Source of the DNA: Rhodoglobus sp.
Lineage (GTDB): Bacteria > Actinomycetota > Actinomycetes > Actinomycetales > Microbacteriaceae
Direction: 5' to 3'
Length of the DNA: 64,000 nucleotides
Assembly: GCA_025463605.1 (NCBI GenBank)
Contig: JAODAV010000001.1
Location: forward strand, 248,001-312,000
Position 1 is the stretch's first letter, and each line of letters begins with the position of its first letter. The notes below the pieces were generated by a model that did not search any database, was not told the DNA's origin, and worked only from the letters and a program-made list of their open reading frames with translations. The translations under genes and the position numbers were made by a program. Positions 60-14,320 of this stretch are shown here, in pieces.

Positions 60-692
60 TCAGCGCGGCCACACCGGCCGGAACTGCACACTGATACGGG
101 GACCGACGGCCTGCCTGGTCTTCAGGATGGCGTGCTCGTAGGTGCGCTGACAGCTGCCGCCCATGACGATGAGGTCGCCGTGACCGACCGCGAAGCGTAG
201 CGACTGCCCACCACCCCTCGGCCGCATCGACAGCGTGCGCTCCGCACCAACCGAGAGGATGGCGACCATCGTGTCGCGGTCGATCGTGCGGCCGACCCGA
301 TCCCCGTGCCAGGCCACGCTGTCGTCACCCGTGCGGTAGAAGCACAGGCCGGCCGTCTCGAAGACCTGGCCGGGTGGCCGGCCGTAGTGGTCGTTGAGGG
401 CGTCGCGGGCGCCCTCGAGCACCGGATCGGGGAAGGTCGAGCCGGGCCCGAACCACGATACGAGCCGAGGCACCGCCACCACCCGGTCATACATCTCGCG
501 CTTGTCGGCCTTCCAGGGCACATCGACGGCGAGCCGCTCGAACAGCGCGTCTGAGTTGGAGAGCCAGCCGGGCCGGAGGTCGATCCAGGCACCGTGCTCG
601 AGGGGGATGCGCTGCATCATGAGACCGAGCGGACGCAGTTGCGGCTCGGAGGCGATGTCGTCGAACAGTGAGGTCTGGAACGCGATACTCAT
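60..692 (-). CDS. AlkB-like 2-oxoglutarate/Fe(II) dioxygenase
   Basis: Predicted 210-aa protein of the AlkB family, which uses Fe(II) and 2-oxoglutarate to remove alkyl lesions from nucleic acid bases. The iron ligands are visible as the HGD triad start (H129, D131) and H187 in the TYEHAI segment, and the family C-terminal arginines follow in PRISVQFRP (R199, R205). The length matches the short bacterial AlkB/ALKBH2-type proteins. The reading frame runs open upstream, but I chose the ATG at 692 because the protein then begins MSIAFQTSLF, as the family does, and a perfect LexA-type box lies 20 bases upstream. That box implies induction by DNA damage. It is transcribed divergently from the isomerase-like gene at 822. 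Sure of the family; the actual substrate (DNA, RNA or protein) is not shown by sequence. Confidence 0.9.
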   Translation of the reverse strand: MSIAFQTSLFDDIASEPQLRPLGLMMQRIPLEHGAWIDLRPGWLSNSDALFERLAVDVPWKADKREMYDRVVAVPRLVSWFGPGSTFPDPVLEGARDALNDHYGRPPGQVFETAGLCFYRTGDDSVAWHGDRVGRTIDRDTMVAILSVGAERTLSMRPRGGGQSLRFAVGHGDLIVMGGSCQRTYEHAILKTRQAVGPRISVQFRPVWPR

Positions 693-711
693 GTATAGAG
701 GATAGCAATAT

Positions 712-727
712 TCGAACATATGTTCGA
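712..727. promoter_or_regulatory. LexA (SOS) box
   Basis: The 16-bp perfect palindrome TCGAACATATGTTCGA matches the actinobacterial/Gram-positive SOS-box form CGAACNNNNGTTCG at every defined position. It sits 20 bases upstream of the AlkB-like start and about 95 bases upstream of the divergent isomerase-like gene. Repression of the dioxygenase by LexA is the simplest reading. Control of the rightward gene is possible but weaker because of the distance. Confidence 0.85.
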
Positions 728-821
728 GTGCGGATTGTGAGGCATGTCGAGCCGTCCTCGGCGGCAAGGCGGTTGGGGAGTAGAGCCCCGACCTCCCATC
801 ATTGTTCTCATGAGGAAGCCG

Positions 822-1814
822 ATGAACCCGCCCGAACCGATCGTGCTGCCGTCCAACCAACCGCGCGACCGGTTCTACCAGGGCGGCAGTCGCATATCCG
901 ACTTCCGCTCCGAACCGCCCTCCGACCCCCGCACACCCGAGGACTGGGTCGGCTCGACGACAAGCGTGCGTGGTGCGGCTCCCGTGGGCATGACCCGCCT
1001 TCCCGACGGGCGACTACTGGTCGAGGCGCTCGAGGCCGCCCCGATCGAGTGGCTCGGACCTGAGCATGTCGAGCGCTTCGGCGCCGACGCGAAGCTGCTC
1101 GTCAAGCTGCTCGACGCGGGCCAGCGGTTGCCGATCCACGCGCATCCCGACGGTGAATTCGCAGCACGGCACGTCGGAGCCCGGCACGGCAAGGCCGAGG
1201 CCTGGTACATCCTCTCGCCCGGCACCGTGTTCCTGGGCCTCAAAGAAGACGTCGACGACGCCCGGCTGCTCGCACTCGTCGAGGGGCAGCACGCGAGCGA
1301 ACTGCTCGCGCTCATGCACGAGATCGACGTGCGCATCAACGACACGGTCTACGTTCCGCCCGGAGTTCTGCATGCGATCGGGGAGGGAATCCTCCTCGCC
1401 GAGGTGCAGGAGCCGGAAGACCTGTCGATCCTGCTGGAGTGGGAGGGGTACGACCTCGACGGCGCTCGGGACGGGCACCTCGGCCTCGGTTTCGAGCTCG
1501 CTCTCAACGCCGTGGAGACCCGCGGCCGATCGCGTGACGAGGCGCTCGCACTCGTGCGGGCTGCTGCGGACGACGGCCCGGCGCTCGTGCCCGAGGCCGA
1601 CCGCTACTTCCGACTAGACAGGGTGTCGACCGAAGGGGACTTCCCGGCCGGTCTTGCGGTGGTGATCGGACTCGACGGCGAACTGAGCCTCGGCACGGCG
1701 AACGGCGCTGTGCCGCTACGCCGGGGCACCACCGTGCTGGTTCCGTACTCGGCGGGCGGGATGCGCCTCACAGGTGCGGGCACCGCCCTGGTCGCGCGAC
1801 CGCCGCTCGCTTGA
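822..1814 (+). CDS. manA: Class I mannose-6-phosphate isomerase-like cupin
   Basis: Roughly 330-aa protein related to type I phosphomannose isomerases, which interconvert mannose 6-phosphate and fructose 6-phosphate in the cytoplasm. Visible family features are the zinc-site segment LPIHAHPDGE (the QSHPD-like motif), KAEAWYIL (the KPEMWYI-like motif), and VPPGVLHAIGEGILLAEVQEP with its cupin histidine. It ends in a beta-rich C-terminal cupin half. The start is uncertain: ATG 822 follows AGGAAG with a very short 3-base gap, while ATG 810 has no clear ribosome-binding site. It stands alone and divergent from the AlkB-like gene. Shorter, diverged isomerases of this kind can act on other sugars, so mannose is likely but not proven. 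Confidence 0.75.
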   Translation: MNPPEPIVLPSNQPRDRFYQGGSRISDFRSEPPSDPRTPEDWVGSTTSVRGAAPVGMTRLPDGRLLVEALEAAPIEWLGPEHVERFGADAKLLVKLLDAGQRLPIHAHPDGEFAARHVGARHGKAEAWYILSPGTVFLGLKEDVDDARLLALVEGQHASELLALMHEIDVRINDTVYVPPGVLHAIGEGILLAEVQEPEDLSILLEWEGYDLDGARDGHLGLGFELALNAVETRGRSRDEALALVRAAADDGPALVPEADRYFRLDRVSTEGDFPAGLAVVIGLDGELSLGTANGAVPLRRGTTVLVPYSAGGMRLTGAGTALVARPPLA

Positions 1815-2009: not shown

Positions 2010-2732
2010 GTGTCGAGACCGGCACTGCCGCTACCCGACGGACTCTTCGAGGACTCGAGCCCGCCTCTCAACGACGAACTCAGTGTGGACTTCGTTTACC
2101 GCACCGTAAAGGCGTCGATCATTCAAGGGCAGTTGGGGCCGAACTACCTGACGTCTGAGGAACAGATTGCCGCCCGGTTGGGTACGAGCAGAACGCCCGT
2201 CCACAGGGCGCTGCTAAGGCTGCAGTCCGAGGGTTGGCTCACCATGTCTCTGCGGCGGGGATTGCGTATTTCCTCGCTCACCGCGTCGGACATGGTCGAC
2301 GTGTACGAGGCTCTCATGGCGCTCGAGATTGCGGCCGTATACCGGCTAACAGAAAAGGGAGCCGACCCGGCTCTCCTTCAGCGACTCGAAGGAGTCTGCG
2401 CTCAAGCAGAAGAGGCGCTCGCTCGTGGTGACCTGGTTGCTTGGGGAAGATCCGACAGTGTTTTTCACCGCAGCGTGATCGTCGCTAGCGGAAACAAGCA
2501 GATCGCGGCCTTCGGGGACGTACTGATGGATCGTGTCGACCGAGCCCGTTACGCGACTCTTGATCGGCGGCCCACGCCCATACGCTCCAACGAAGAGCAC
2601 CGGGCGCTGCTCGACGCCCTGGTGAATCGAGACTCCTCCGCCGCGAGGCGGGCCGTCGAGATTCACAGGCGACATGCCATCAGCACTCTGGTGCCCATTC
2701 TCGACGCGATTAGCGCGGTGCCGCCCGCCTAG
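2010..2732 (+). CDS. GntR family (FCD) transcriptional regulator
   Basis: 240-aa regulator with an N-terminal winged helix (about residues 25-95, including EEQIAARLGTSRTPVHRALLRLQSEGWL, the GntR recognition region) and an all-helical FCD-type effector domain after it (SDSVFHRSVIVASGN and the EEHRALLDALVNRD segment carry the usual acidic and histidine ligand positions). FCD regulators bind carboxylate effectors, often with a metal. The GTG start at 2010 is forced by an in-frame TAA at 1995 and has AAGGT 9 bases upstream. It converges, 22 bases apart, on the catabolic operon ending at 2755, so it is the natural candidate regulator of that operon. Its ligand is unknown. Confidence 0.85.
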   Translation: MSRPALPLPDGLFEDSSPPLNDELSVDFVYRTVKASIIQGQLGPNYLTSEEQIAARLGTSRTPVHRALLRLQSEGWLTMSLRRGLRISSLTASDMVDVYEALMALEIAAVYRLTEKGADPALLQRLEGVCAQAEEALARGDLVAWGRSDSVFHRSVIVASGNKQIAAFGDVLMDRVDRARYATLDRRPTPIRSNEEHRALLDALVNRDSSAARRAVEIHRRHAISTLVPILDAISAVPPA

Positions 2733-2754
2733 CTCAGTCTCGCCGGCGCACGCA

Positions 2755-3771
2755 TTATGCCCCGCTGTACCTCGCGAAGATCTGCGCCACTTCGGCAATG
2801 TGTTGGTCTGTCTCGCGCTGATGAGCTTTGGCGCTCGCAATGCCGACAGCGAGCAGAATCCGTGCCTTGTTAGCCGGCAGCTCACCTGCCGGGATCACGC
2901 CCAACGCCTGCAAGGAGGTTTCCGAGCCCTGATACCCATAAGTGCGAGCAAGCGTCGCGCCCGCCCCGGTGCGCGAAGCGAAGACCACGGGCATTCGCTG
3001 CGCAGCCTCCCCGATCACACCGAGCGACTGCGCTGGAACATGACCACCGCCCAAAGCCTCGATCACGAGTCCGGAGTAGTGATCGCTGTCAATCGATCGA
3101 ATCTGATGTCCACTCTCGCCGAGCCCGATGCCGACTACGCAAACTTGGGGCAAGGGCGTGTCACCCGTCGGGATCGGCCGCCTGCGCTCCGACGTCCGGA
3201 GCACCATTCTCAGACGTCCCTCGGATATCCACCCCAAGGGTCCCACACTTGGCGAGCCGAAAGCGCTCACGCTGGACGTATGCAGTTTTCGAACCCAGCG
3301 CGCTGCATGCACCTGGTCGTTCATCACGACGAGGACGCCGAGTCCGCGAGCTTCTTGTGATCGTGCGACCTGGATCGCAGCGCTCAAATTGGCGAGGCCC
3401 TCGGCTCCCAGCGCATCCGCAGGGCGCATCGCACCTGTGAATACGATGGGCATGTCGCCGCCGTAGAGCAGATCAGTCAGGAATGCGACATCTTCCAGCG
3501 TGTCGGTTCCCTGAGTGATCACCACTCCGAGCACCCCGGCCGCCGCCGCAACGCGATCGACGATTTCAGCCGCGATAGCCAGGTCAAGGCTCGCGGAAGG
3601 CTCGCGGCGCAGTGTCAAGGTTGAGATCTCCAGCCCGTGGTGAACCGACCTCAGCGACGATGAGAGGTCCTCGGCATCAAGAACCGGTACAGCGAGAGAA
3701 GAGTCCGATCCCTGTGCCCGCGCAGACGAAATCGTGCCGCCCAGAGAAATAACCAACACGCCCTTTGCCAC
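2755..3771 (-). CDS. L-asparaginase/glutaminase-family amidohydrolase
   Basis: 338-aa protein of the bacterial asparaginase family. The nucleophile threonine is T13 in SLGGTIS and the second catalytic pair is in TQGTDTLEDVAFL (T89, D90); VFTGAMRPAD follows as in type II enzymes. No signal peptide is seen, so it should act in the cytoplasm. The GTG start at 3771 is preceded by GGAGG with 7 bases spacing, which rules out the longer upstream reading. It is the last gene of a seven-gene operon that starts at 10327, 35 bases after the NodB-fold hydrolase. In this setting it may hydrolyse the amide of a half-amide intermediate rather than free asparagine; that is inference from context. Family assignment is firm, substrate is not. 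Confidence 0.88.
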   Translation of the reverse strand: MAKGVLVISLGGTISSARAQGSDSSLAVPVLDAEDLSSSLRSVHHGLEISTLTLRREPSASLDLAIAAEIVDRVAAAAGVLGVVITQGTDTLEDVAFLTDLLYGGDMPIVFTGAMRPADALGAEGLANLSAAIQVARSQEARGLGVLVVMNDQVHAARWVRKLHTSSVSAFGSPSVGPLGWISEGRLRMVLRTSERRRPIPTGDTPLPQVCVVGIGLGESGHQIRSIDSDHYSGLVIEALGGGHVPAQSLGVIGEAAQRMPVVFASRTGAGATLARTYGYQGSETSLQALGVIPAGELPANKARILLAVGIASAKAHQRETDQHIAEVAQIFARYSGA

Positions 3772-3806
3772 GCCGGATCCTCCGCTCAGGCCGTGTGCAG
3801 AGTGCC

Positions 3807-4718
3807 TCAAGATGCCTGCGCTCTGAAAGGCACGCGCTCTCTGTACTCCACGGCAATCGCCTCCATCGTCGTCCACTCGACGCCCGAATGCTCGTCGACG
3901 AAATCGAAGAACCGTTCAAGCATGAGCAGATTTTGCGGACGACCGCATACGTCTGGATGGATCGTGATCGGAAATACGGCGTAATCGAGTTCCCGGTGCA
4001 CCCACTCGAACTGGTCACGCCACAGTTTCTCGATGTCATGAGGGCTGACGAAGCCGTGGCTGTTCGGCGAGGACTTGATGAACATCATGGGTGGCAGATC
4101 GTCCAGATACCAGTTCGTGGGTATCTCGACAAGGTCGATCGCGTCGCCGAGATGCATTGGTTTCATCCACGACGATGCCGGTCGCTCATAGTCAATGTTC
4201 GTCCATGCGTCGCCCGTTCGAACGTAGTGGGGCTGAAAGTCTCCGTATGCCTGACTGTGGTCATAGTCGAATCCGTACTTGAGAAGGAGCTCAGGGGTGC
4301 GCTCTGACATTTCCCACCACGGAGCGACGTAGCCCCGGGGGGCCTTGCCGGTCAGGCGGGTGATGAGCTCGCTGCTGAATGCCAACACTTCTTCCTCCTG
4401 GTCGGCATTCATACTGATCGGATTCTCGTGCGTATAGCCATGCGCCCCGATCTCGTGTCCGTGATCGACGATCGCCGCTGATTGGCTGGGAAAACTCTCA
4501 ATGGAATGCCCGGGAATGAACCACGTGGTCTGAATTCCCCGCCTGCGGAAGAGTTCGAGTAGCCGCGGTACCCCGATCTCCGCGGCAAAGACGCCACGCT
4601 GGATATCGGCAGGGGAATCTTGCCCTCCGTACGAGCCGATCCATCCGCTGACGGAGTCGAAGTCGACCCCGAGACTCAGTTGGATCTTCTTGGAGGCCCC
4701 GTGATCCGCAGTCTGCAT
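3807..4718 (-). CDS. NodB-fold (polysaccharide deacetylase/cyclic imidase-like) hydrolase
   Basis: 303-aa protein with the NodB homology fold. The metal-binding Asp is in LGVDFDS (D19, D21), the two histidines in HGYTHE (H93, H97), the RxxPxW-type motif in RGYVAPWW (R128, P133, W134), and the late histidine in [11 protein letters not shown]. It has no signal peptide or membrane segment, so an extracellular glycan is an unlikely substrate. The layout (no export, HGYTHE, IHPDVxGRP) fits the HpPgdA/PuuE-like branch, some members of which open cyclic imides or allantoin. The start follows GGGAGGAACTG and overlaps the SDR stop by one base (TGATG), so the two are translationally coupled. Between a dehydrogenase pair and an amidase, ring-opening of an imide-like compound is a reasonable guess. 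Confidence 0.8.
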
Positions 4719-5473
4719 CAGTTCCTCCCGACCTGTAGACCACCATCAACCGTGATGATCTGACCGCTTATGTAGCGGGAGTCGCGCGAAGCCAAGAAGG
4801 CCACGACGTCGGCGATGTCTTCCGGCTCTCCGATTCGCCGCAGCGGAATATAGTGGCGGCTCGCATCAAGACCCGCCTCCCCGAGCGAATGCACTTCAGA
4901 GAGCGACTGGGCTGTGCGAATGTATCCCGGCGCAACACCGTTCACGCGCACACCCGCAGGGCCAAACTCCACCGCGAGCGCACGAACTAGCCCGATGAGG
5001 CCCGCCTTGGCTGCTGAATAGCTCGCGTGCTCGCTCCACCCGTAGTTGTTGCCCATGATGGACGTCATCGCAATCATCGTTCCCGCCCCGCGCTCCTGGA
5101 GCTGAGCCGCACCCTCCCGGAACATCCGCATGGCCCCGTTCAGATCAATGTCGACAACATGATTCCATTCCGCGTCGCTCACGCCGAGGAACGTCTGCTT
5201 GTAGGCCACGCCCGCATTGGCGACGACGACGTCGAGTGGGAATTTGCCGCTCTGCACTGCGGAAAAGACGTGGTTCACTTGCTCGGAGTCCCGAACGTCA
5301 AGCTCGAGGAACTCTGCGGACCCTCCGGCGGCAATGATCTGATCACGCACCGCGCAACCCTCGTCGCAGAGGATGTCTGTGACCACGACATGGAATCCGT
5401 CTGCAGCCAATCGATGCGCGACGGCCGCTCCGATGCCGATCCCGGCTCCTGAGACTATTGCTGACAGTTTCAT
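4718..5473 (-). CDS. Short-chain dehydrogenase/reductase
   Basis: 251-aa classical SDR. The nucleotide-binding motif is slightly unusual (SGAGIGIG, residues 8-15, in place of TGxxxGxG). NAG is at 86-88, the catalytic serine at S138 in MTSIMG, and Y152/K156 in SYSAAK. The C-terminal [11 protein letters not shown] is the standard family ending. It should oxidise or reduce a hydroxyl or keto group with NAD(P). It overlaps the upstream dehydrogenase by four bases (ATGA) and the downstream hydrolase by one, so it belongs to the same operon. Annotation as 3-oxoacyl-ACP reductase would be by similarity only; context argues for a catabolic 2-hydroxyacid or sugar-acid substrate. Confidence 0.85.
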
Positions 5474-6600
5474 CGCTCTGCTCCTCCTTCGGTCGCCTGA
5501 GCCAACGCGACAGGTGTCGCCGAGAGCCTTCGCATCAGTGCATCCATAAACTCACTCGTTGTTGCGGTACCGCCAATGTCTCTGGTCTTCACGCCGTCCG
5601 TGTCGAGCACGTCTTCTATGGCCTGCAACAGGAAGGAGGACCCTTCGGACTCGCCCAAGTGGTCAAGCATCATCGCTGCGGCCCAGAGCGCCCCGATCGG
5701 ATTCGCAACACCGAGTCCAGCAATATCCGGTGCCGAGCCGTGGATGGGTTCGAACATCGACGGGAACTCTCGATCCGGATTGATGTTTCCGGACGCTGCG
5801 ATGCCGATGCTTCCAGAGATGGCCGCACCGATCTCAGAAAGGATGTCCCCGAAGAGGTTGCTCGCGACGACGACGCCATAGGAGTTGGGGTCGAGCACAA
5901 GCTTCGCGGCCAGAGCGTCTACGTGCGTCAGCTCCAAGGCAACGCCCTCGCGCTCACACACCTCCCGGCAAATCTCATCCCAGAACGGCATCGTATGGAT
6001 GATGCCATTCGACTTAGTGGCCGAAACGAGCCGACCGCTTCCTTCTGCGGCCAGCTTCGCCGCGTAGGTGACGATCCGGTCGACGCCACGGCGGGTGAAC
6101 ACGGATTCCTGCACGGCGAGTTCCTCGGGCTGACCTCTATATAGGCGCCCGCCGATCTCTGAATACTCTCCCTCGGCGTTCTCGCGAACGATCACGAGGT
6201 CTGTGCTGGAGAGCGGATGCACCAATGGGCCCTGCACGCCCCGCAGCAGTCGAATTGGCCTGACATTCACAAACTGATCGAACGACCTTCGAATGGGAAT
6301 CAAAAGCCCCCACAGGGAGTGGTGGTCCGGAACTTCCGGGGATCCCACGGCGCCCAACAGGATCGAGTCGACATCGCGCAAGCGCTCAAGTCCGTCCTCG
6401 TCCATCATGCGTCCGGTAGCAAGGAAGTGGTCACAACCCCAGGGAAACTCCGTCACGCTGATCGCAAAGTCGTACCGCGCACCGACGGCCATGAGCGCGT
6501 CGAGGGCCGCAGGAACTACCTCTTTGCCAATACCGTCTCCCGGTATCGAGGCGATCTCATATCTGCGCGGCGTGAGTGAGGCCGATTCTTGCGTAGTCAC
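5470..6600 (-). CDS. Tartrate/D-malate-type NAD-dependent dehydrogenase
   Basis: 376-aa member of the isocitrate/isopropylmalate dehydrogenase family, closest in motif to tartrate dehydrogenase/decarboxylase (TtuC) and D-malate dehydrogenase (DmlA). Diagnostic are SLWGLLIPIRRSFDQFVNVRPIRLL (loop and substrate arginines), IVRENAEGEYSEIGG, the catalytic lysine in TKSNGI, the metal-binding LFGDILSEIGAAISG, and the NAD loop FEPIHGSAPDIAG. It would oxidise a 2-hydroxy-dicarboxylate with possible decarboxylation, releasing pyruvate-type products. It overlaps the permease by four bases (ATGA), tying its expression to uptake. The length is typical. Which hydroxyacid it uses cannot be told from sequence. 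Confidence 0.85.
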   Translation of the reverse strand: MTTQESASLTPRRYEIASIPGDGIGKEVVPAALDALMAVGARYDFAISVTEFPWGCDHFLATGRMMDEDGLERLRDVDSILLGAVGSPEVPDHHSLWGLLIPIRRSFDQFVNVRPIRLLRGVQGPLVHPLSSTDLVIVRENAEGEYSEIGGRLYRGQPEELAVQESVFTRRGVDRIVTYAAKLAAEGSGRLVSATKSNGIIHTMPFWDEICREVCEREGVALELTHVDALAAKLVLDPNSYGVVVASNLFGDILSEIGAAISGSIGIAASGNINPDREFPSMFEPIHGSAPDIAGLGVANPIGALWAAAMMLDHLGESEGSSFLLQAIEDVLDTDGVKTRDIGGTATTSEFMDALMRRLSATPVALAQATEGGAER

Positions 6601-7595
6601 TTGATGACACCAATTTTCTTTCTATCCAACGAGATGAGAACAGCAAGCACCAAGACGATGCCCTGAGCAATAATCTGCATTTCCGGATTCACGCCAAGAA
6701 TGACGAGTCCGTTCAACAGGATGTTGATGATCAGCGCCCCGACGATTGTGTTCAGCAGGCTGCCAAGACCACCGGTCAACGGTGTTCCCCCCAGTACGAC
6801 AGCGGCGATCACAGTGAGTTCAAACCCGGTTCCAGCGGTCGGGGTTGCTGAGCCAAGCCGAGCGCTCACGATGATGCTCGCGACCGCGGCCATTGCTCCA
6901 GCCAAGACGAAGACGAGGATCTTGATCCTCGCGACGGGCACGCCTGACATTTCTGCTACCCGCTCTTGTCCACCAACAGCAGCGACGTAGCGACCGAATG
7001 AAGTGAAGCGATACAGCACGCCGCAGAAGGCGAACGCCGCGATTGCGATGACATAGATCCCGGGCTCACTTCCGGCCCAGTCCCACTCTGCGGGAGTCGG
7101 AATAGGGCTGGTCTGCGAGACGACGAGTGTGAGCCCGCGAGCGATGGACAGCATCCCGAGCGTCATGATGAAAGAGGGCACCTTCAGTATCGCCAACCCG
7201 ACGCCGTTGATCAGCCCAGCGGCAACACCGGTGGCGAGCGCGGCAAGTATCCCCATCCATGGCCCATAACCCACGCTGACCGTGGCTCCGACGACCCCGC
7301 TTAGTGCCAGGACCGACCCGACCGACAGGTCGATGGATCCCGAGACGACCACGAGTGTGACACCGAACGCGGCAACGGCGACGGCGACCGACTGAACCAG
7401 GATGAACTGTGCGTTCGAAGCTGTGGCGAATCGGTCAGGAGCCGCGATCGAGAAGAACGCGACAAGCACGATCAGCGCCAGAAAGGGAATCGACCGCTTC
7501 CATACCGACTGGATCCTCCTGGAGATCGTCTCCTGTCGAGTGATGCCTTCACGCTCTGCGACGGGCAGATCTTCCTGAACTCGTAATGAATTCAC
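6597..7595 (-). CDS. RbsC-type ABC transporter permease
   Basis: 332-aa integral membrane protein of the ribose/xylose-type permease family (BPD_transp_2). A charged cytoplasmic N-terminus of about 30 residues is followed by 8-10 hydrophobic segments. The family landmarks SGSIDLSVGSVLALSGVVGATV and the conserved loop GTPLTGGLGSLLNTIVGALIINIL are present. As a single permease it probably forms a homodimer with the ATPase encoded just upstream (13 bases away) and the lipoprotein at 9269. The same transporter class also imports autoinducers and nucleosides, so a sugar substrate is not certain. The stop overlaps the dehydrogenase start. Confidence 0.88.
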   Translation of the reverse strand: MNSLRVQEDLPVAEREGITRQETISRRIQSVWKRSIPFLALIVLVAFFSIAAPDRFATASNAQFILVQSVAVAVAAFGVTLVVVSGSIDLSVGSVLALSGVVGATVSVGYGPWMGILAALATGVAAGLINGVGLAILKVPSFIMTLGMLSIARGLTLVVSQTSPIPTPAEWDWAGSEPGIYVIAIAAFAFCGVLYRFTSFGRYVAAVGGQERVAEMSGVPVARIKILVFVLAGAMAAVASIIVSARLGSATPTAGTGFELTVIAAVVLGGTPLTGGLGSLLNTIVGALIINILLNGLVILGVNPEMQIIAQGIVLVLAVLISLDRKKIGVIK

Positions 7596-7608
7596 AACCG
7601 TTCCTTTC

Positions 7609-9111
7609 CTAGTGCATCATTCCGACGAGCAGTTCTTCAGTGGGTCCGCTCTCTTTGTCAGCAACACCGGAAACCTCCCCGTCGCGCATCATCAAGATCG
7701 AGTCGCTCATGCCGATCAGCTCGTTCAGCTCATCGGAGACGAGCAGGACACCAACACCACGCGACGCCAGGGACCGAATCACCGCGTAAATGTCTGACTT
7801 CGCACCGACGTCGACACCGCGCGTCGGATTCTGGAGGATCAGCAGCCGGTAGTCGCGCATCAACCACTTCGCGAGGACTACCTTCTGTCGGTTCCCCCCG
7901 CTCAAGTTGCCAGGGGCGTCCTGCGGGCCACCGCAAACCACCTTCAAGCGGTCAATGAGCATCGAGACATCAGATTTGTCGCGGCGCCGCGAGAGGAATC
8001 CGAACACCCCTCGAAATGGCACGTTGGGAAGCAACGCATTGTCTTGAATGGTGTGCTGAAGGATGAGGTCGTTCTTTTCACGATCGCCGGTCACAAAGCC
8101 GACGCCCATCCGAATGCTTTTCCTCTGGGAAGCTCGCTGCACAGGGCTGTCCCGAAAAGTCACCCTCCCGCTGTCCCGTGCGATCGAGCCGAAGACTGCT
8201 TCAGCAAGTTGCTCGTTTCCGCACCCGACGAGACCTCCCACGCCAACGATCTCGCCGGATCGAATCGCCAGCGACACCCCTTTGACTTTGTCGCCCACCC
8301 AGAGATCTCGAATGTCGAGAAGCACCTGCTCGCGGGCATCCTCACGCAGTTCCGCGTGGTAAAGGGTGCCGACAAGTGAGCGCCCGACCATCATGGTTTG
8401 CAGCTCGGCCTCGGTGAGATCCGCTGAGGCCATTGTCTGCACCAAGCGCCCATCCTTCATGACTGTGATGCGATCACACAGGCTGAAGAGCTCCTCGAGA
8501 TAGTGCGAGATGTACAACACAGCAACACCCAGCCCAGCGCACTGCTTGAGAAGCGAGTACAGCCGGTTGACGCCGGACTTGCCGAGACTCGCCGTCATCT
8601 CATCAATAATCAGCACGCGCGGCTTGAAGGCCATCGCGCGGGCAAGCTCAACGAGCTTCTGTGTCTCCAGGTCAAGTTCGCTCACGAGCAAGGACGGATT
8701 GAGGCCCAACCCCACGAACGCCAAAGCCTCGGCCGCTGCTTTCCGCTGACGAATCGGATTGAGCATCCCGACCGTCGAATAGTGATCTTCCCTGCCGAGG
8801 AACAGATTCTCGGCAACCGTCATAGTGGGGATGAGACCCGGCTCTTGAAGCACTATCTCAACGCCAAGTGCACGGGCCTCAGCGACGCTGTTCGGCGCAA
8901 ACGACACGCCATCGAGTTCCATCGAACCCGACGTCGGACTGACGATGCCACTGAGAATCTTCATGAGGGTTGACTTGCCAGCGCCGTTCTCGCCGGCAAC
9001 TGCGTGAATCTCTCCAGCCGAGAACGTAAGACTCTCTTCCGCGCCGAAGGCCACAGCCCTTGTGGCGCCATAGTTCTTGGTAATAGCGGTTAGCTTCAAC
9101 CGGTCGTTCAA
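7609..9111 (-). CDS. RbsA-type double ABC ATPase
   Basis: 500-aa protein with two fused nucleotide-binding domains, the standard form for ribose-class importers. The first domain has Walker A GENGAGKST (40-48), and KPRVLIIDEMTAS as Walker B. The second domain has the usual degenerate Walker A (GLVGCGNEQLAE) but a good signature and Walker B (LSGGNRQKVVLAKWL, YRLLILQNPTRGVDVGAK). It would energise uptake through the RbsC-like permease. In the first domain the signature is weak (SELDLETQKLVELARAM lacks SGG), which is common in this family. It lies 157 bases downstream of the binding-protein gene across a strong hairpin. Confidence 0.9.
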   Translation of the reverse strand: MNDRLKLTAITKNYGATRAVAFGAEESLTFSAGEIHAVAGENGAGKSTLMKILSGIVSPTSGSMELDGVSFAPNSVAEARALGVEIVLQEPGLIPTMTVAENLFLGREDHYSTVGMLNPIRQRKAAAEALAFVGLGLNPSLLVSELDLETQKLVELARAMAFKPRVLIIDEMTASLGKSGVNRLYSLLKQCAGLGVAVLYISHYLEELFSLCDRITVMKDGRLVQTMASADLTEAELQTMMVGRSLVGTLYHAELREDAREQVLLDIRDLWVGDKVKGVSLAIRSGEIVGVGGLVGCGNEQLAEAVFGSIARDSGRVTFRDSPVQRASQRKSIRMGVGFVTGDREKNDLILQHTIQDNALLPNVPFRGVFGFLSRRRDKSDVSMLIDRLKVVCGGPQDAPGNLSGGNRQKVVLAKWLMRDYRLLILQNPTRGVDVGAKSDIYAVIRSLASRGVGVLLVSDELNELIGMSDSILMMRDGEVSGVADKESGPTEELLVGMMH

Positions 9112-9197
9112 CGTCGACGCTCCTTCGTACTGGGAATTCGGGCGTGGGACATCGGGCAGAAGTCCGGTTTTTCTGGGAGGGATTCAATCAAGCTCAA

Positions 9198-9231
9198 CCT
9201 CGATGCGCCCGAAACGTTCGGCGCACCGAGG
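9198..9231 (-). terminator. Intercistronic stem-loop after the binding-protein gene
   Basis: Arms beginning CCTCG at 9198 and ending CGAGG at 9231 pair over about 15 bases with one mismatch and one bulge, around an ACG loop. It lies between the binding-protein stop (9269) and the ATPase start (9111). No clean U-run follows, so a partial terminator or mRNA-stabilising hairpin that gives more binding protein than membrane components is likelier than full termination. It is the only gap over 50 bases within this operon. Confidence 0.5.
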
Positions 9232-9268
9232 TCGAACTCAATTCACGCCGCGAGGCGTCCGCGCGCTA

Positions 9269-10327
9269 CTACTGAATTTCGATCCTGAAGTCGGACGTAG
9301 ACGCGTCGGGGTTGAGCGTCGAGGACATCGACTTGATGTCGTACGGCGGAAGACCCGAACCGAACTGCTCGATGTACTGGTCGATGTTGTCCGAGTTGAC
9401 GAGGAGGTAGTCCATGACAACGTAGGGCTCTTTCGGCTCATTGCCGTTCAGGTAGTCCCACAGCATGATGTACGCGAAACCGCCATCGATGAACTGGCCT
9501 CCGGCTGCGGCCAGAATGTCGCCGGCCGCAATGCCCGCTGACCCAGCGGCTTCGGCATCGAAGCCGGTGATGTTCACAGTTCCGCTCTCACCGGCCTTGT
9601 CGAGGGCCGCCACCGCGCCCACGGCTCCGCCGTCCGCGAAGCTCCAGTACCCGTCGAAACCTGGCCCCGGGTAGGCCGACAAGTAGTTCTGCGCAGCCGT
9701 GATCCCCTCCTGCTCGAGTTCGACCCCGTACTGCACCTGGAGGACTTCGAAGTCCTGATGTTCTTTCGCGAAGTCAAGTAGTCCGGCTACCCGCTGTTCG
9801 GCAACCGAACTGCCCTTGGTTCCGGTCGTTGCAACGATCTTTCGTGACCCAGCGTCATAGAGAGCCTGCGCTGTCAGCATCGCTCCCTGATGGCTGTCGG
9901 CTCCGACGAAACCGAGGTAGGAGGGATACTTCTTCGCGTCTGGCTCGAACCCGGGAGTGCGCTCGGCGAATACCAGCGGAATGCCCGCCTTGTCAGTCAC
10001 CTTGATGAGTGCAGGAGCGAGCGCGTCTGTGACGGAAGCAGCGATGATCCCGTCCACGCCCTGTGAAACAAACGTCTCCATGATTTGCAGCTGCTTGGAC
10101 TCGTCTTGGTTCGCGTCTGCGACGATGAGCTCGCCGCCCAGCTCCTCGGCCACGTGCTTCATGAAGTCGGCTTCCGTCTTCCAGAACGGACTTGCCAGTA
10201 CGGGAACGCTGAAACCGATTGTGAACTTGGGTTCTTCGTCGGTTGCGCTCGGGCTCGCCGCACATCCGCTCATGACCAACGCTGCGGATACGGATAACAC
10301 AAGTGATGCGGCAAGTCTCTTTCGCAC
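9269..10327 (-). CDS. Periplasmic-binding-type lipoprotein of the ABC importer
   Basis: 352-aa substrate-binding protein of the ribose/LacI-like fold. The signal peptide ends in a lipobox (VMSGC, C22), so it should be a lipoprotein on the outer face of the membrane. The mature part shows two lobes: TIGFSVPVLASPFWKTEADFMKHVAEELG at the start, the FVSQGVDGIIAASVTDALAPALIKVTDKAGIPLVFAER hinge region, and GFDGYWSFADGGAVGAVAALDKAG further on. The GTG start at 10327 has GGAGA 6 bases upstream. It heads the operon, as binding proteins usually do. The ligand is not recognisable. Family membership is certain. Confidence 0.92.
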   Translation of the reverse strand: MRKRLAASLVLSVSAALVMSGCAASPSATDEEPKFTIGFSVPVLASPFWKTEADFMKHVAEELGGELIVADANQDESKQLQIMETFVSQGVDGIIAASVTDALAPALIKVTDKAGIPLVFAERTPGFEPDAKKYPSYLGFVGADSHQGAMLTAQALYDAGSRKIVATTGTKGSSVAEQRVAGLLDFAKEHQDFEVLQVQYGVELEQEGITAAQNYLSAYPGPGFDGYWSFADGGAVGAVAALDKAGESGTVNITGFDAEAAGSAGIAAGDILAAAGGQFIDGGFAYIMLWDYLNGNEPKEPYVVMDYLLVNSDNIDQYIEQFGSGLPPYDIKSMSSTLNPDASTSDFRIEIQ

Positions 10328-10365
10328 TGCTTTTCTCCAATCGTCGAATGCTGCTTTCGGAGCAA

Positions 10366-10393
10366 GTTATCGTATACAAGAACCCGCATGCAA
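10366..10393 (-). promoter_or_regulatory. Candidate promoter with embedded GntR-like operator
   Basis: On the minus strand TTGCAT (10388-10393) and GATAAC (10366-10371) are spaced by 16 bases, a fair vegetative promoter for the operon starting at 10327. Within the spacer and into the -10 lies TTGTATACGA (10370-10379 in minus-strand sense), a near-palindrome around GTATAC of the kind bound by FCD-type GntR repressors. Position and form fit repression by the regulator at 2010. By-eye call. Confidence 0.4.
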
Positions 10394-10507
10394 ATTGCGG
10401 AGCATCATTTCACGGCGTCGAAACATTGGCGTCACGGCCACGAAACATCGAAGCATTTCAGAGCGACGAGGCACCCGTATCTCGGGGCCGGCGGCGCTCT
10501 CGATAGC

Positions 10508-10525
10508 GGACCCTAGGGGATTTGA
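10508..10525 (-). repeat. 18-bp copy of the tRNA-Ala 3' end (att-like)
   Basis: Bases 10508-10525 are identical over 18 bases to 10621-10638, the 3' acceptor and T-stem end of the tRNA-Ala gene, in the same orientation. Partial tRNA 3' ends in direct repeat are the usual trace of a tyrosine-recombinase integration at a tRNA gene. Here the copies are only 113 bp apart, so no element remains between them. It may be a relic, or one end of an element whose other end has been lost. Confidence 0.6.
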
Positions 10526-10547
10526 CGCCCCAAGTGCCGCGAGGGTT

Positions 10548-10621
10548 CACCGCCGTGAAGCACGCCGCCCGGCCTTAACGAAAGAACGCCGCCTCACTGG
10601 GCGGCGTACTTCACGGCTGTG
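10548..10621 (-). terminator. Large hairpin with alternative stems downstream of tRNA-Ala
   Basis: A 23-base arm at 10548-10570 pairs with 10599-10621 at 21 of 23 positions. A second, 8-base perfect stem (10586-10593 with 10600-10607) uses part of the same right arm. The two folds exclude each other. The structure lies directly after the tRNA 3' end on the minus strand and before the operon promoter, so it should end tRNA transcription and insulate the operon. There is no long U-run. Confidence 0.6.
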
Positions 10622-10692
10622 GACCCTAGGGGATTTGAACCCCTGACCTCCTCGATGCGAACGAGGCGCGCTACCAACTGCGCCAAGGGCCC
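10620..10692 (-). tRNA. tRNA-Ala (anticodon CGC)
   Basis: A complete 73-base cloverleaf can be folded on the minus strand. It has a 7-bp acceptor stem (GGGCCCT with AGGGTCC, one G-U pair), a D-stem GCGC/GCGC, a 5-bp anticodon stem CCTCG/CGAGG with loop TTCGCAT, and a T-arm AGGGG TTCAAAT CCCCT. The discriminator is A. The anticodon CGC reads the alanine codon GCG. The CCA end is not encoded. Confidence 0.97.
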
Positions 10693-10737
10693 CTGATCCG
10701 ACGCGCGAGCGAAGGCTCAGATGCGTTAGCTAGGTTA

Positions 10738-11874
10738 TCAGAACACGTAGCGACCGAATCTCGCCAGGTCAGCGAGAGTGAAGGCGGCATCGCCGAGGCC
10801 GACCTCGAGGAGGCGGTCGAACATCCTGGGGTCATTGCGACCGGCGCGGATGACGGTGTCGAGCACGAGCGGAAAATCGATGATGCGGTACAGCGTCGTG
10901 GTCTGCCGGTATTGGCGGCCGAACCGTGCGTGGAGTGCCGCGGCATAGTTCGCGCCCGGCGCCGAGCTCAGGGCGGCGCGACCCGCCATGGCGCCCGACG
11001 CGATCGCGCTGTGAATGCCCTCGCCCGTGAACGGGTTGATGAGGCTCGCCGCATCGCCGACGAGCAGCACGTTGCCGACCGCCGGGCGTGGCCGACTCAC
11101 GGTGAGCGGCAGCGTGTGGCCCGTAAGCGCGACGCCCTCGAGGTCGAACTCGGGCAGCAGCGCACCCAGCCGCCGCTCCAGGTGGGCGCGACTGTGCTCC
11201 TTCGCCGCAGACGAGAGACCGTAGCCGACGTTGGTCGTGCCGTCAGCAACCGGAAACGCCCACGCGTAGCAGAGTCCCCCGGAGCGCTGGCTGTCCCACC
11301 GGATCGTGAGCTCCCGCTTGCTGCCGTCGGGCGTCGGGGCATAGCCGCGGATCGCCACGGCGAGCGAACGCCCGTGATTCGTGGGCTCGCCGATCAGGCG
11401 CCGCACGACGGAGTTGCTACCGTCGGCGCCGATCACGACGGGTGCGCGCCAGCGTCCGTTGACGAGAGTGACGGATGCCCCCTGCCGCTCGAGACTCGCA
11501 ACCTTGGCCACCTCGAACTCGGCGCCCGCCACCATCGCCGCGCGCAGCAGCCGCGCATCGAAGACGGCCCGGCGGATGACGTAGCCCGGGCTCGTCGTCA
11601 CGGCTCCCGCGTTGCCGCCGCTTGGACCGATGAGGCGCACGGTGGCGACGCTCTCCTCCGGGCGTACCGCGTGCACCCCCAGTGACTCGAGCTCCGCGAC
11701 AGCGTGCGGGGCGATACCGTCACCGCACACCTTGTCGCGCCCGAACGGTGCTCGATCGAGCAGCAGCACACGGGCATCCGGCTTCGATCGCAAGGCGGCG
11801 ATGGCCGCGGCAGACCCCGCTGGACCTGCCCCGACGACGATCAGGTCCCAGTCGCGGCGGCCGCCGGAAGGCAT
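10738..11874 (-). CDS. Geranylgeranyl reductase family FAD-dependent oxidoreductase
   Basis: 378-aa flavoprotein. The dinucleotide-binding motif is at the N-terminus (LIVVGAGPAGSAAA), followed by DRAPFGRDKVCGDGI, which is typical of the geranylgeranyl reductase/digeranylgeranylglycerophospholipid reductase group. The second FAD motif is VLLVGDAASLINPFTGEGIHSAI. Such enzymes saturate isoprenoid chains; in actinobacteria they are often thought to act on menaquinone or other prenyl lipids. The ATG at 11874 overlaps the stop of the upstream membrane-protein gene by one base (TGATG), so the long upstream extension of the frame is not coding. The exact substrate is unknown. Confidence 0.85.
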   Translation of the reverse strand: MPSGGRRDWDLIVVGAGPAGSAAAIAALRSKPDARVLLLDRAPFGRDKVCGDGIAPHAVAELESLGVHAVRPEESVATVRLIGPSGGNAGAVTTSPGYVIRRAVFDARLLRAAMVAGAEFEVAKVASLERQGASVTLVNGRWRAPVVIGADGSNSVVRRLIGEPTNHGRSLAVAIRGYAPTPDGSKRELTIRWDSQRSGGLCYAWAFPVADGTTNVGYGLSSAAKEHSRAHLERRLGALLPEFDLEGVALTGHTLPLTVSRPRPAVGNVLLVGDAASLINPFTGEGIHSAIASGAMAGRAALSSAPGANYAAALHARFGRQYRQTTTLYRIIDFPLVLDTVIRAGRNDPRMFDRLLEVGLGDAAFTLADLARFGRYVF

Positions 11875-12719
11875 CAGCCTGCGGCGCGGCGGCGAGCGAG
11901 CACAGCGTCGAGATCCGGTGCGGAGCGCGAGGTGTCTTCGATGATGCCCATCCTCGCGAAGGGGCTCGCCGCCCGGGCCGCTGCGGGGCGCACAGGGCCG
12001 GCCTCGCGCTGGGTCTCGCGCAGCGCGCGCTCCGCTGCCGCAGATGCGAGCGCGAGTTCGAACGCGGGATCGGCGGCCGGTGCGATCTCTGCCGCCGGTC
12101 GCGATAGATAAAGGGGCTTCGGAACGGGAACCGGGGTCCACTCCGGCTGCCGTTGCTCGGCGACTCGCTCGACGGCGGCACCCAGGGAGGTGCGGCGGGC
12201 CGGGCGCGCCACAGAGGTTCGGCGCAAGCGTGCGGCATCGGCGAGCCGGCCGAGCATCGCCACGGAACCCAGCGCGGAGAAACCCGCCACGACGAGCACG
12301 ACCCACGAGCCCACCACGGGTCCAGCGGTGAGGATGAGCGAGAGCTGCACTATCGACACCACGGTGGAGGCCAGCATGACGGCGGACATGAGCATGCGGC
12401 CACGACGCATGCGGCGACGAGCCAGCGACGCCGCATCGAGTACAACCGGTGCAAATGGGCGCACCACGGGTCGCCCTACAGAGACGGGACCCTCGACCCG
12501 CAACTGCTGAGCAACGCGGCGAGCAGCGGCCTCGGCTCGAACGGCGGCGGGCAGCTCCGCGGTCTCCGCGAGTATACGGATGGTCTGCTGCAGCCTCACG
12601 GCGTTGCGCTCCGTCGCGAGATACTCGCGGCGCCGCAGCCAGTTCGGCACGAGGTAGACGAGCCACAGGCCAGCCGCGATGGCAAGCATGATGCCGCCGC
12701 CGATGCCCGTGAATTCCAT
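11874..12719 (-). CDS. Conserved membrane protein of unknown function
   Basis: 281-aa protein I cannot assign to a characterised family. A membrane segment lies at the N-terminus (about residues 8-26, IMLAIAAGLWLVYLVPNWL), followed by a charged helical stretch. A pair of membrane helices comes at about 108-155 (LMSAVMLASTVVSIVQLSLIL and VVLVVAGFSALGSVAMLG). The last 120 residues form an Ala/Arg/Pro-rich, probably disordered cytoplasmic tail. It sits between the acetyltransferase and the flavoprotein, and similar proteins occupy this place in other Microbacteriaceae, where they are sometimes called large exoproteins. Stop and start overlap with the flavoprotein gene shows co-expression. Confidence 0.75.
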   Translation of the reverse strand: MEFTGIGGGIMLAIAAGLWLVYLVPNWLRRREYLATERNAVRLQQTIRILAETAELPAAVRAEAAARRVAQQLRVEGPVSVGRPVVRPFAPVVLDAASLARRRMRRGRMLMSAVMLASTVVSIVQLSLILTAGPVVGSWVVLVVAGFSALGSVAMLGRLADAARLRRTSVARPARRTSLGAAVERVAEQRQPEWTPVPVPKPLYLSRPAAEIAPAADPAFELALASAAAERALRETQREAGPVRPAAARAASPFARMGIIEDTSRSAPDLDAVLARRRAAG

Positions 12720-12779
12720 GGCTCTACGGTACGGTCGTCGAGGCTCTCGAAGCGACTGCCACGCCAGAGCGAGCCCCGC

Positions 12780-13427
12780 CTAGATAAGAGGTCGCGCGGC
12801 CTTCGCGCGATCGGACGCGGGAACCTCGGCATCCTTCTCCAGTGCCTTGCCATCGAGCCAGCGCCGCAGCACACCCGTCGGCAGCTCGTCGACCGTAAGC
12901 GCGAAGCAGAAGTGGTCGCGCCAGTCACCGTTGATGTGGATGTACCGCCGCCGCAGCCCCTCGTAGCGAAAACCCAACTTCTCCACGACTCGAAGCGAAG
13001 GCTCGTTCTCCGGGCGGATGCAGATCTCCATGCGGTGCAGCCCCACCGCGAAGAAACAGTGATCAGTGGCGAGTGCGACGGCGGTGGGGGTCACGCCCTT
13101 GCCCGCGAACTTCTCCGACACCCAGTAGCCGATCGTCGCCGATGACAGCGAGCCGTAGGCGATGGATGACACGTTGAGCTGCCCCGCGAGCCGCCCGTCG
13201 TACTCGATCACGAACGGGATGCCGAGGCCCGCGCGCGCGTTCTGCTGCAGGCTGCGGATGCTCGAGCGCACGTCGAAACTCATCGGCCCGTGCGGGTTGG
13301 TCGCCTCCCACTTGCGCAGCCAGGACCGGTTCTCGGCGAGTTCCCGTTCGAGCGCTCGCGCGTCGCGAAGCCGGATCGGGCGGATCGTCGTAAGGCCCTC
13401 ACTGAGGGTGGGGATGGTCGACGCCAT
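12780..13427 (-). CDS. GNAT N-acetyltransferase, RimJ/RimL type
   Basis: 215-aa acetyltransferase of the ribosomal-protein N-acetyltransferase type. The core is VIEYDGRLAGQLNVSSIAYGSLSSATIGYWVSEKFAGKGVTPTAVALATDHCFFAVGLHRMEICIRPENEPSLRVVEKLGFRYEGLRRRYIHINGDWRDHFCFALT. This includes the acetyl-CoA loop (KFAGKGVTPTA) and the NxxSxxVxxKLGF motif. The ATG at 13427 lies two bases after the galU stop, so the two are one transcript. The natural acceptor (protein N-terminus or small molecule) is not known. This order is conserved in relatives. Confidence 0.85.
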   Translation of the reverse strand: MASTIPTLSEGLTTIRPIRLRDARALERELAENRSWLRKWEATNPHGPMSFDVRSSIRSLQQNARAGLGIPFVIEYDGRLAGQLNVSSIAYGSLSSATIGYWVSEKFAGKGVTPTAVALATDHCFFAVGLHRMEICIRPENEPSLRVVEKLGFRYEGLRRRYIHINGDWRDHFCFALTVDELPTGVLRRWLDGKALEKDAEVPASDRAKAARPLI

Positions 13428-13429
13428 GG

Positions 13430-14320
13430 TCAGTCCAGGGAGCTGGCGAACTGCTTGAGCCAAGGGCGGAGCTCGGGCCCGAGGTCGTGGCGCTCCACGG
13501 CGAGCTGCACGATCGCCTTGATGTAGTCGAGTCGGTCCCCGGTGTCGTAGCGCCGACCGCGGAACACGACCCCGTACACGCCGCCCGCGATGTTCTCGCT
13601 CGCCATCACCTGCAGCGCATCGGTGAGCTGAATTTCGCCGCCCTTGCCGGGCTGTGTGCGCTCGAGCACGTCGAAGACCTCCGGCTGCAGCACATAGCGC
13701 CCGATGATCGCAAGGTTGGAGGGGGCGGTACCGTTTACCGGCTTCTCCACGAGATCGGTGATGCGCACGATGTCTTCGGTCTCAGTCGCCTCGACCGTCG
13801 CGATTCCGTAGAGGTGGGCGGCCTCCGGCTCCACCTCGAGGAGCGCGATGACGGATGCGTTGCGCGCGGCCTGCTCCGAGATCATGCGCGACAGCAGCAC
13901 ATCCCGTTCGTCGATGAGGTCATCACCCAGCAGCACGGCGAACGGCTCGCGGCCCACGTGCATGTGGGCCCGCAGAACGGCGTGACCGAGACCGCGCGGG
14001 TCGCCCTGGCGCACGTAGTGCATGTCGGCGAGGTCGTTCGAGTACTCGACCTTCTTGAGGCGGTCGACGTCGCCCTTCTCCTCGAGGGTGGCTTCGAGCT
14101 CCGTCATGCGGTCGAAATGGTTCTCGAGCGCGTTCTTGTTGCGACCCGTGATCATGAGCACGTCGTGGAGACCGGCCGCGACGGCCTCCTCCACTACGTA
14201 CTGGATCGCGGGCTTATCCACCACCGGAAGCATCTCCTTGGGCATTGCCTTGGTCGCGGGCAGGAACCGTGTTCCGAGGCCTGCTGCGGGGATGACTGCC
14301 TTGGTGATCTGAAACGCCAT
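13430..14320 (-). CDS. galU: UTP--glucose-1-phosphate uridylyltransferase
   Basis: 296-aa GalU. The N-terminal nucleotide-binding motif VIPAAGLGTRFLPATKAMPKEMLP is complete, and IQYVVEEAVAAGLHDVLMITGR, AVLLGDDLID and the late motif EIQLTDALQ are all present. It makes UDP-glucose for cell-wall and exopolysaccharide precursors. Length and motifs match active enzymes. It is divergent from the formyltetrahydrofolate cyclo-ligase gene across a 92-base region that must hold both promoters. Confidence 0.96.
   Translation of the reverse strand: MAFQITKAVIPAAGLGTRFLPATKAMPKEMLPVVDKPAIQYVVEEAVAAGLHDVLMITGRNKNALENHFDRMTELEATLEEKGDVDRLKKVEYSNDLADMHYVRQGDPRGLGHAVLRAHMHVGREPFAVLLGDDLIDERDVLLSRMISEQAARNASVIALLEVEPEAAHLYGIATVEATETEDIVRITDLVEKPVNGTAPSNLAIIGRYVLQPEVFDVLERTQPGKGGEIQLTDALQVMASENIAGGVYGVVFRGRRYDTGDRLDYIKAIVQLAVERHDLGPELRPWLKQFASSLD

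Follow-up and report, generated by a model that had tools for sequence, protein, structure and literature searches.

A candidate operon for the uptake and breakdown of a small hydroxylated N-heterocycle in Rhodoglobus sp.

Which compound is taken up and degraded by an operon that joins a CUT2-class importer to a NodB-fold hydrolase, an asparaginase-family amidase, a TtuC-like dehydrogenase, and a short-chain dehydrogenase/reductase (SDR)? The question is raised by a stretch of 64,000 nucleotides from Rhodoglobus sp. (assembly GCA_025463605.1, contig JAODAV010000001.1, positions 248,001 to 312,000 of the forward strand), termed here the window, whose own numbering is used throughout. A previous sequence-only reading had described a single operon at 2755–10327 and named its gene families; seven minus-strand genes lie there, and the coordinates, the Pfam and NCBIfam family names for all seven proteins, and the overlaps between genes bore this description out (Table 1). 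We consider it somewhat more probable than the contrary that the locus is a horizontally acquired operon whose products take up and degrade a small hydroxylated N-heterocycle. This reading is built on what was observed: the gene order, the protein families and their catalytic residues, the repeated joint occurrence of SDR, imidase, and amidase genes, and the nature of the island.

The NodB-fold hydrolase and its partner genes

The hydrolase aligned with HpPgdA (3qbu, 4ly4) over 289 residues without a gap, at 431.6 bits. In all, 22 distinct solved sequences were matched; the second best gave 103.3 bits, and two PuuE-type chains gave 61 and 52 bits. The HpPgdA structural report names Asp14, His86, and His90 as zinc ligands, Asp12 and His247 as water-holding residues, and Trp127, Trp196, Tyr23, and Leu201 as bulky gate residues (PMC3084791). 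D19, D21, Y30, H93, H97, W134, W203, L208, and H254 of the window hydrolase match these residues at an offset of +7, and for each of them between 84 and 100 of the 100 branch members aligned (duplicate loci included) have the same residue. The gap-free alignment and the conserved zinc and gate residues confirmed the previous placement of the enzyme in an HpPgdA-like branch. To judge by its sequence, the hydrolase belongs to the branch of HpPgdA, the protein that served as model for the fungal cyclic imidase HxnM.

The window hydrolase shares with HpPgdA (HP0310) the gap-free alignment, metal ligands, gate residues, and lack of a signal peptide, the last as given for HpPgdA in its structural report (PMC3084791). 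HpPgdA differs in having been described both as a peptidoglycan deacetylase and as an acetyl esterase, and its physiological substrate is disputed. The same report records no activity on typical polysaccharides, no polysaccharide groove, and a closed site, from which a small-molecule substrate was deduced; allantoin was among the substrates tried (PMC3084791). Another study reports acetyl(xylan) esterase activity of HP0310, with acetylated xylan and p-nitrophenyl acetate as substrates (PMC3688963). This esterase activity notwithstanding, peptidoglycan or polysaccharide deacetylation was rejected as the main role of the window enzyme, on account of the closed small-molecule site of HpPgdA and its lack of a signal peptide (PMC3084791).

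Imidases of the HpPgdA/HxnM branch were found in 38 of 396 same-order genomes (E ≤ 1e-60) and in 33 of 396 genomes drawn phylum-wide, the own genome being included in both counts. Neighbours were counted within 5 kb of the imidase. An imidase score threshold of 350 retained 21 of the 23 loci from named genomes and 10 of the 13 from plasmids (the plasmid loci left out are L138, which has no NodB gene, L140, which has a PuuE-like one, and the haloarchaeal L143); the genomes are partly related and the counts hence not independent. Among 40 order-level imidases, 20 had an amidase gene nearby, 17 an SDR gene, and 15 both. Amidase and SDR genes accompanied 11 and 3 of the 21 named-genome imidases, respectively, and 7 and 7 of the 10 plasmid imidases. 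The background in the own assembly (87% complete, 2.88 Mb) is 25 SDRs at E ≤ 1e-20 and one asparaginase.

The window SDR was searched against the 396 same-order genomes at E ≤ 1e-50, with the six best candidates per genome scored. There were 11 matches, own included; nine of the ten foreign matches lie 1.2–1.5 kb from an imidase, and all ten genomes are among the 37 other imidase-bearing ones. The tenth match (in G723) is a tandem SDR pair on a separate contig of an imidase genome. At least 5000 plasmid records matched the SDR. Among the best 25, many of which are near-identical rhizobial plasmids, 20 carry a NodB gene no more than 4 kb away (19 HpPgdA-type, one PuuE-like), one has a cyclase-family hydrolase and an amidase in place of NodB, and four fall outside the count. 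In a tree of 65 rows, where the window SDR is present twice (from the window and the own genome), it falls in a 28-row clade with support 100/100, all members of which except that of L138 lie near an imidase; because the rows were picked mostly by imidase, the tree alone is no proof of linkage. A nine-row clade within it (100/98) holds SDRs of Leucobacter, Skermanella, Aminobacter, Mesorhizobium, Rhizobium, Agrobacterium, and an Acetobacteraceae bin. The SDR is the most tightly linked partner of the imidase, and the two are true partners.

The three genes of the window, in the same order (SDR-imidase-amidase), were found on a 6-kb Leucobacter contig (L045) that ends just before the SDR. A frequent order in Actinomycetota is amidase-imidase-MFS-SDR-SDR (MFS, major facilitator superfamily), and other imidase clusters hold genes annotated as amidase or matching PF01425. 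On the haloarchaeal plasmid L143, an asparaginase gene and a NodB gene are grouped with two SDR genes, but both SDRs fall outside the clade of the window SDR. A Klebsiella pneumoniae plasmid (L142, 5589–12160) carries amidase-imidase-MFS-SDR-SDR-hypothetical-CobW with an amidase of another family, and at least five Klebsiella plasmid records have both SDR and imidase among the matches listed.

CobW GTPase genes lie near 10 of the 21 named-genome and 9 of the 10 plasmid imidases. CobW proteins are often metal chaperones, a function that would go well with a zinc imidase. A CobW gene is absent from the window operon, and the own assembly has one clear and one weak match elsewhere. A small protein (91–112 aa in six plasmid examples) is encoded between imidase and CobW GTPase, e.g. 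at 9913–10206 of L065; a match to it was present near 10 of the 21 named-genome and 8 of the 10 plasmid imidases, and the L065 copy, the sole one checked, had no Pfam match.

It is improbable that the operon instead serves cyclic ureides of the hydantoin, dihydropyrimidine, or allantoin type, with the NodB enzyme acting like PuuE allantoinase. PuuE is among the next solved relatives of the hydrolase and is its best-scoring NCBIfam model; dihydropyrimidinase (10 of the 21 named-genome loci) and hydantoinase A/B genes are neighbours of imidases elsewhere, and L140 has a PuuE-like NodB within a similar gene set. However, the bit scores to PuuE chains are far below that to HpPgdA, and the PuuE model gave 73.3 bits against a cut-off of 424.6, a shortfall by which PuuE-type allantoinase was rejected. 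The window operon also lacks dihydropyrimidinase and carbamoyl-amidase genes, and its hydrolase keeps the metal site, which is said to set HpPgdA apart from PuuE (PMC3084791). Barbiturase-type ring opening was dropped as well, the Pfam matches of the eight proteins including no such family.

The fungal parallel and the proposed route

In nicotinate breakdown by Aspergillus nidulans, the SDR HxnW turns 5,6-dihydroxypiperidin-2-one into 3-hydroxypiperidine-2,6-dione, and HxnM (an HpPgdA-like imidase) opens the latter to hydroxyglutaramate, from which the amidase HxnN forms 2-hydroxyglutarate (PMC9304392). HxnM is 64.2% identical to a Pseudomonas putida cyclic imide hydrolase homologue, and its structure resembles 3qbu (PMC9304392). 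The P. putida cyclic imide hydrolase (AAY98498) is an imidase of the HxnM branch according to the fungal papers. In fungi, hxnM-hxnW and hxnN-hxnV are conserved divergent pairs (PMC8478523). The window operon likewise has an SDR, an HpPgdA-branch imidase, and an amidase, in one cluster and in the same order. The previous statement that no characterised pathway has this set was therefore too strong, though the fungal steps use an amidase of another family and have neither TtuC nor ABC (ATP-binding cassette) importer: HxnN resembles fatty acid amide hydrolase (amidase-signature type), whereas the window amidase is of the Asparaginase family. C5 intermediates were shown in the fungus, whereas those of the window operon are putative.

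On this precedent, the CUT2 importer would bring in a polar ring compound, its putative ligand. The SDR would then oxidise the hydroxyl beside the ring nitrogen of a hydroxylactam to give a cyclic imide (HxnW role), the zinc NodB-fold enzyme would open the imide to a half-amide (HxnM role), and the asparaginase-family amidase would free ammonia to leave a dicarboxylate (HxnN role, in another family). Finally, the TtuC-like enzyme would oxidise a 2-hydroxy-dicarboxylate with decarboxylation, and the resulting oxo acid would enter central metabolism. The order of steps follows the fungal model, and we infer every reaction in this organism. Imide opening, half-amide hydrolysis, and hydroxy-dicarboxylate oxidation had been proposed before; membership in the HxnM branch and the recurrence of SDR, imidase, and amidase strengthen this scheme for a still putative substrate. 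The SDR had been left without a role in that scheme; by analogy with HxnW, it most likely forms the imide from the hydroxylactam.

The carbon skeleton is most likely C4, in which case 3-hydroxysuccinimide would be converted via malamate and malate to pyruvate. It is preferred because TtuC enzymes use D-malate- or tartrate-type acids, and because malamate differs from asparagine in having a hydroxyl in place of the amino group. The best guess for the substrate is thus a hydroxysuccinimide-type compound, a choice made solely on the malate- and tartrate-type acids of TtuC enzymes.

A six-membered glutarimide would require the uptake of a pyridine-derived hydroxypiperidone and end in 2-hydroxyglutarate, with TtuC acting on that acid or another; the operon would then reproduce in a bacterium the lower part of the nicotinate pathway of fungi. 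We regard this as unlikely. The compounds of the fungal pathway are C5, and at four bacterial loci (L046, L061, L117, L141) an old-yellow-enzyme gene belongs to the cluster or lies close to it; these are candidate bacterial counterparts of the fungal HxnT, HxnW, HxnM, and HxnN steps. At L063, a 626-aa monooxygenase has FAD_binding_3 and Phe_hydrox_dim, the domains given for HxnV (PMC8478523). However, genes for a ring hydroxylase or an ene-reductase are absent from the window operon, and 2-hydroxyglutarate is not one of the malate-type acids on which the TtuC family acts. According to the fungal authors, the ring-saturation and HxnW steps had been detected solely in the fungal nicotinate pathway, and the ring-saturation route is reported from no prokaryote (PMC9304392). 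Among the matches listed in the open-licence literature, none set out an imide pathway of bacteria down to its individual genes.

The clusters named above show some further features. In L141 (Rhodococcus erythropolis pLRE138, 6752–12996) the order is asparaginase-imidase-MFS-SDR-SDR, followed by the old-yellow-enzyme gene. In L061 (Arthrobacter sp. Hiyo4, approximately 10001–11000) the imidase match is in several pieces in a complete genome, reflecting sequencing error or decay. In L063 (Haematobacter massiliensis pOT1-1, 8998–13120) imidase, a small hypothetical protein, CobW GTPase, and the monooxygenase are encoded in a row.

Dehydrogenase, amidase, and importer

The TtuC-like enzyme scored 484.9 bits with the tartrate dehydrogenase model TIGR02089, above its cut-off of 470.4, and 489.3 bits with the sister model PRK08194, below its cut-off of 501. 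By the first score it resembles TtuC tartrate dehydrogenase/decarboxylase (3flk), but the other genes around it do not make up a tartrate operon. Sets similar to the window operon occur in L134 (asparaginase-imidase-RbsA-RbsC-RbsC-RbsB-GntR-TtuC, no SDR), L138 (CUT2-TtuC-cyclase family-SDR-amidase, no NodB), and L140 (asparaginase-TtuC-enolase superfamily-SDR-PuuE-like NodB, with an Opp importer). With TIGR02089, the TtuC-family gene of L140 is above the cut-off, that of L134 just below it (463.1), and that of L138 well below it (272.5). TtuC is nevertheless a recruited part and not a dedicated partner of the imidase: one (G452) of 42 other TtuC places in the order is near an imidase. Cyclase-family (PF04199) hydrolases are encoded at 8836–9810 of L138 and 18206–19174 of L139, next to an amidase and an SDR of the same type; the L138 hydrolase takes the place of the NodB imidase and may be a non-homologous replacement of it.

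In the amidase, T11, T87, D88, and K160 (trimmed protein) correspond to the Thr, Thr-Asp, and Lys that we take to be the asparaginase catalytic residues, and each is conserved in 27 or 28 of the 28 members linked to an imidase. The type II L-asparaginase model TIGR00520 was not reached (163.1 bits; cut-off 314.3). Gln is not among the five commonest residues of the 28 members at the position after the conserved Ser, presumably that of Gln59 in E. coli AnsB. We considered the missing Gln as a sign of a substrate without an amino group, and dropped the argument because asparaginases 9d91 and 8h49 also align Pro there. Fructose-asparagine catabolism uses an asparaginase; such a role was set aside, as the operon has no deglycase or kinase. 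Human omega-amidase is reported to hydrolyse L-malamate to L-malate (PMC5485471); this is the L form, whereas the TtuC enzyme would want D.

The importer has the component set and folds of CUT2 importers (RbsABC, YtfQRT), but the ribose and galactofuranose models were below cut-off: RbsA 365.9 bits (cut-off 745), RbsB 65.2 (337), and RbsC 205.8 (398), with the galactofuranose importer models likewise not reached. The best NCBIfam models were YtfQ for the binding protein (75 bits; cut-off 510) and AraG for the ATPase (397 bits; cut-off 689). A ribose operon was rejected on these scores and the absence of a ribokinase. The binding protein contains LVMSGC, which by eye resembles a lipoprotein precursor. 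Its closest solved chains are 5ocp_A (E 4e-19; which we take to be an arabinofuranose binder), 2ioy, and YtfQ; the hint at a five-membered-ring ligand was set aside, since these chains are too distant. CUT2 genes (RbsA matches) were found near 2 of the 40 order-level imidases.

CUT2 importers carry mostly sugars. The operon might accordingly serve a sugar, amino sugar, or sugar acid, with the NodB enzyme as a deacetylase, the asparaginase-like protein as a side activity, and SDR and TtuC oxidising a sugar acid. The esterase activity of HP0310 on acetylated xylan and p-nitrophenyl acetate (PMC3688963) and the enolase-superfamily gene of L140, weakly like sugar-acid dehydratases, point the same way. 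However, genes for a kinase, an isomerase, or an aldolase are missing from the operon, this reading does not account for the amidase and SDR as partners, and HpPgdA showed no typical-polysaccharide activity or polysaccharide groove (PMC3084791). We rate this explanation slightly below the ureide and glutarimide ones.

Several points weigh against uptake and breakdown of a hydroxylated N-heterocycle by way of an imide. The member of the branch with a solved structure, HP0310, is reported as an acetyl(xylan) esterase (PMC3688963). Neither amidase nor SDR lies near 18 of the 40 order-level, 9 of the 21 named-genome, and 2 of the 10 plasmid imidases, so this imidase type must function in other settings as well; an NCS1-type permease adjoins it in six order-level loci, and dihydropyrimidinase is a frequent neighbour at named-genome loci, as given above. 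TtuC is seldom near an imidase, and the L138 dehydrogenase is below the TtuC cut-off. HxnW and HxnN are likened to the window SDR and amidase by described role, not by sequence. The fungal product, 2-hydroxyglutarate, is C5, and the parallel is inexact because a beta-decarboxylating TtuC enzyme is not suited to that acid.

Operon layout and genomic island

Table 1 Features of the operon and its surroundings in the window
Feature	Position	Strand	Evidence
Binding protein gene, CUT2-class (RbsB/YtfQ-like)	9269..10327	-	Peripla_BP_4 E 1e-38; lipoprotein type by eye
RbsA-type ABC ATPase, two nucleotide-binding domains	7609..9111	-	ABC_tran over two stretches
RbsC-type permease	6597..7595	-	BPD_transp_2 E 5e-39
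TtuC-like hydroxy-diacid dehydrogenase (Iso_dh; tartrate/D-malate type)	5470..6600	-	TIGR02089; 3flk E 4e-102
SDR, proposed hydroxylactam-to-imide dehydrogenase (HxnW-like role)	4718..5473	-	adh_short_C2 E 3e-60
NodB-fold cyclic imide hydrolase candidate, HpPgdA/HxnM branch	3807..4718	-	3qbu alignment; no signal peptide by eye
Asparaginase-family amidase, proposed half-amidase	2755..3771	-	Asparaginase E 2e-46; Asparaginase_C E 1e-15
GntR/FCD candidate regulator	2010..2732	+	FCD E 1e-23; GntR E 1e-12
tRNA-Ala (CGC), likely insertion point	10619..10692	-	ARAGORN
18-bp copy of tRNA-Ala 3' end, attachment-site-like	10508..10525	+	exact at 10508 and 10621, 113 bp apart

The RbsC and TtuC genes overlap by 4 nt, TtuC and SDR by 4 nt, and SDR and NodB by 1 nt; gaps of 157 nt and 13 nt separate RbsB from RbsA and RbsA from RbsC. 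The asparaginase gene most likely starts at GTG 3771, because GGAGG lies upstream; the open reading frame from 3876 therefore extends too far, and 35 nt separate the asparaginase gene from the NodB gene. The seven genes are presumably transcribed as a single transcript. A chance gathering of unrelated genes on the island is very improbable: TtuC is no regular neighbour of the imidase and RbsA matches are rare near order-level imidases, but the start and stop codons overlap, L134, L138, and L140 have similar functional sets, and SDR and imidase are linked.

The candidate regulator gene is convergent with the operon end and lies beyond the region covered by the sequence-only reading; its protein scored 78 bits with the NCBIfam model phnR_burk, below the cut-off of 271.5. 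An operator search upstream of the first gene revealed one TTGTATACGA copy at 10370–10379, and at least one copy occurred in 29 of 100 shuffles. One sigma-70-like promoter was found against 2.1 expected. By eye, the flanking genes resemble those for an AlkB-type dioxygenase (60–860, minus strand), a mannose-6-phosphate isomerase (744–1814, plus strand), and a UTP-glucose-1-phosphate uridylyltransferase (13430–14320, minus strand).

GC content is 60.3% at 2010–10500, against 67.8% at 1–2000 and 66.5% at 10620–64000. Because single 1-kb windows elsewhere are as low as 61.2%, it is the unbroken run of ~8 kb that stands out, not single low windows. The region 10508–10692, with the tRNA gene and the repeat, looks like an integration site. 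No third copy of the 18-bp repeat was found in the window (three mismatches allowed) or in the 87%-complete assembly (one mismatch allowed). Four congeners retain the right-flank gene, and their similarity to the window DNA breaks off between 10529 and 10619, either at the 3' end of the tRNA gene or shortly beyond it. The right flank alone was compared, because the ManA-like left-flank gene and the right-flank gene were found close together in no congener in this test for an empty site. A close imidase, the one operon gene searched for in every congener, was present in none of 24; three have proteins of 32–34% identity, and one a partial match at 31%. The operon was most likely acquired horizontally, on an island.

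Cyclic imides arise when N-heterocycles are broken down, and also occur in drugs and agrochemicals. It is a tentative and less probable proposal that bacteria have widespread, unrecognised clusters that run the lower fungal HxnW-HxnM-HxnN route, of which the window operon would be a C4 variant with import of a hydroxylated pyrrolidinone or hydroxysuccinimide and a malate finish via TtuC; some actinobacterial ene-reductase clusters could hold the ring-saturation route. The recurring SDR-imidase-amidase set suggests a testable small-molecule role for many proteins annotated as polysaccharide deacetylases. It also bears on the disputed function of HP0310-type enzymes, and ties bacterial clusters to chemistry reported from a fungus.

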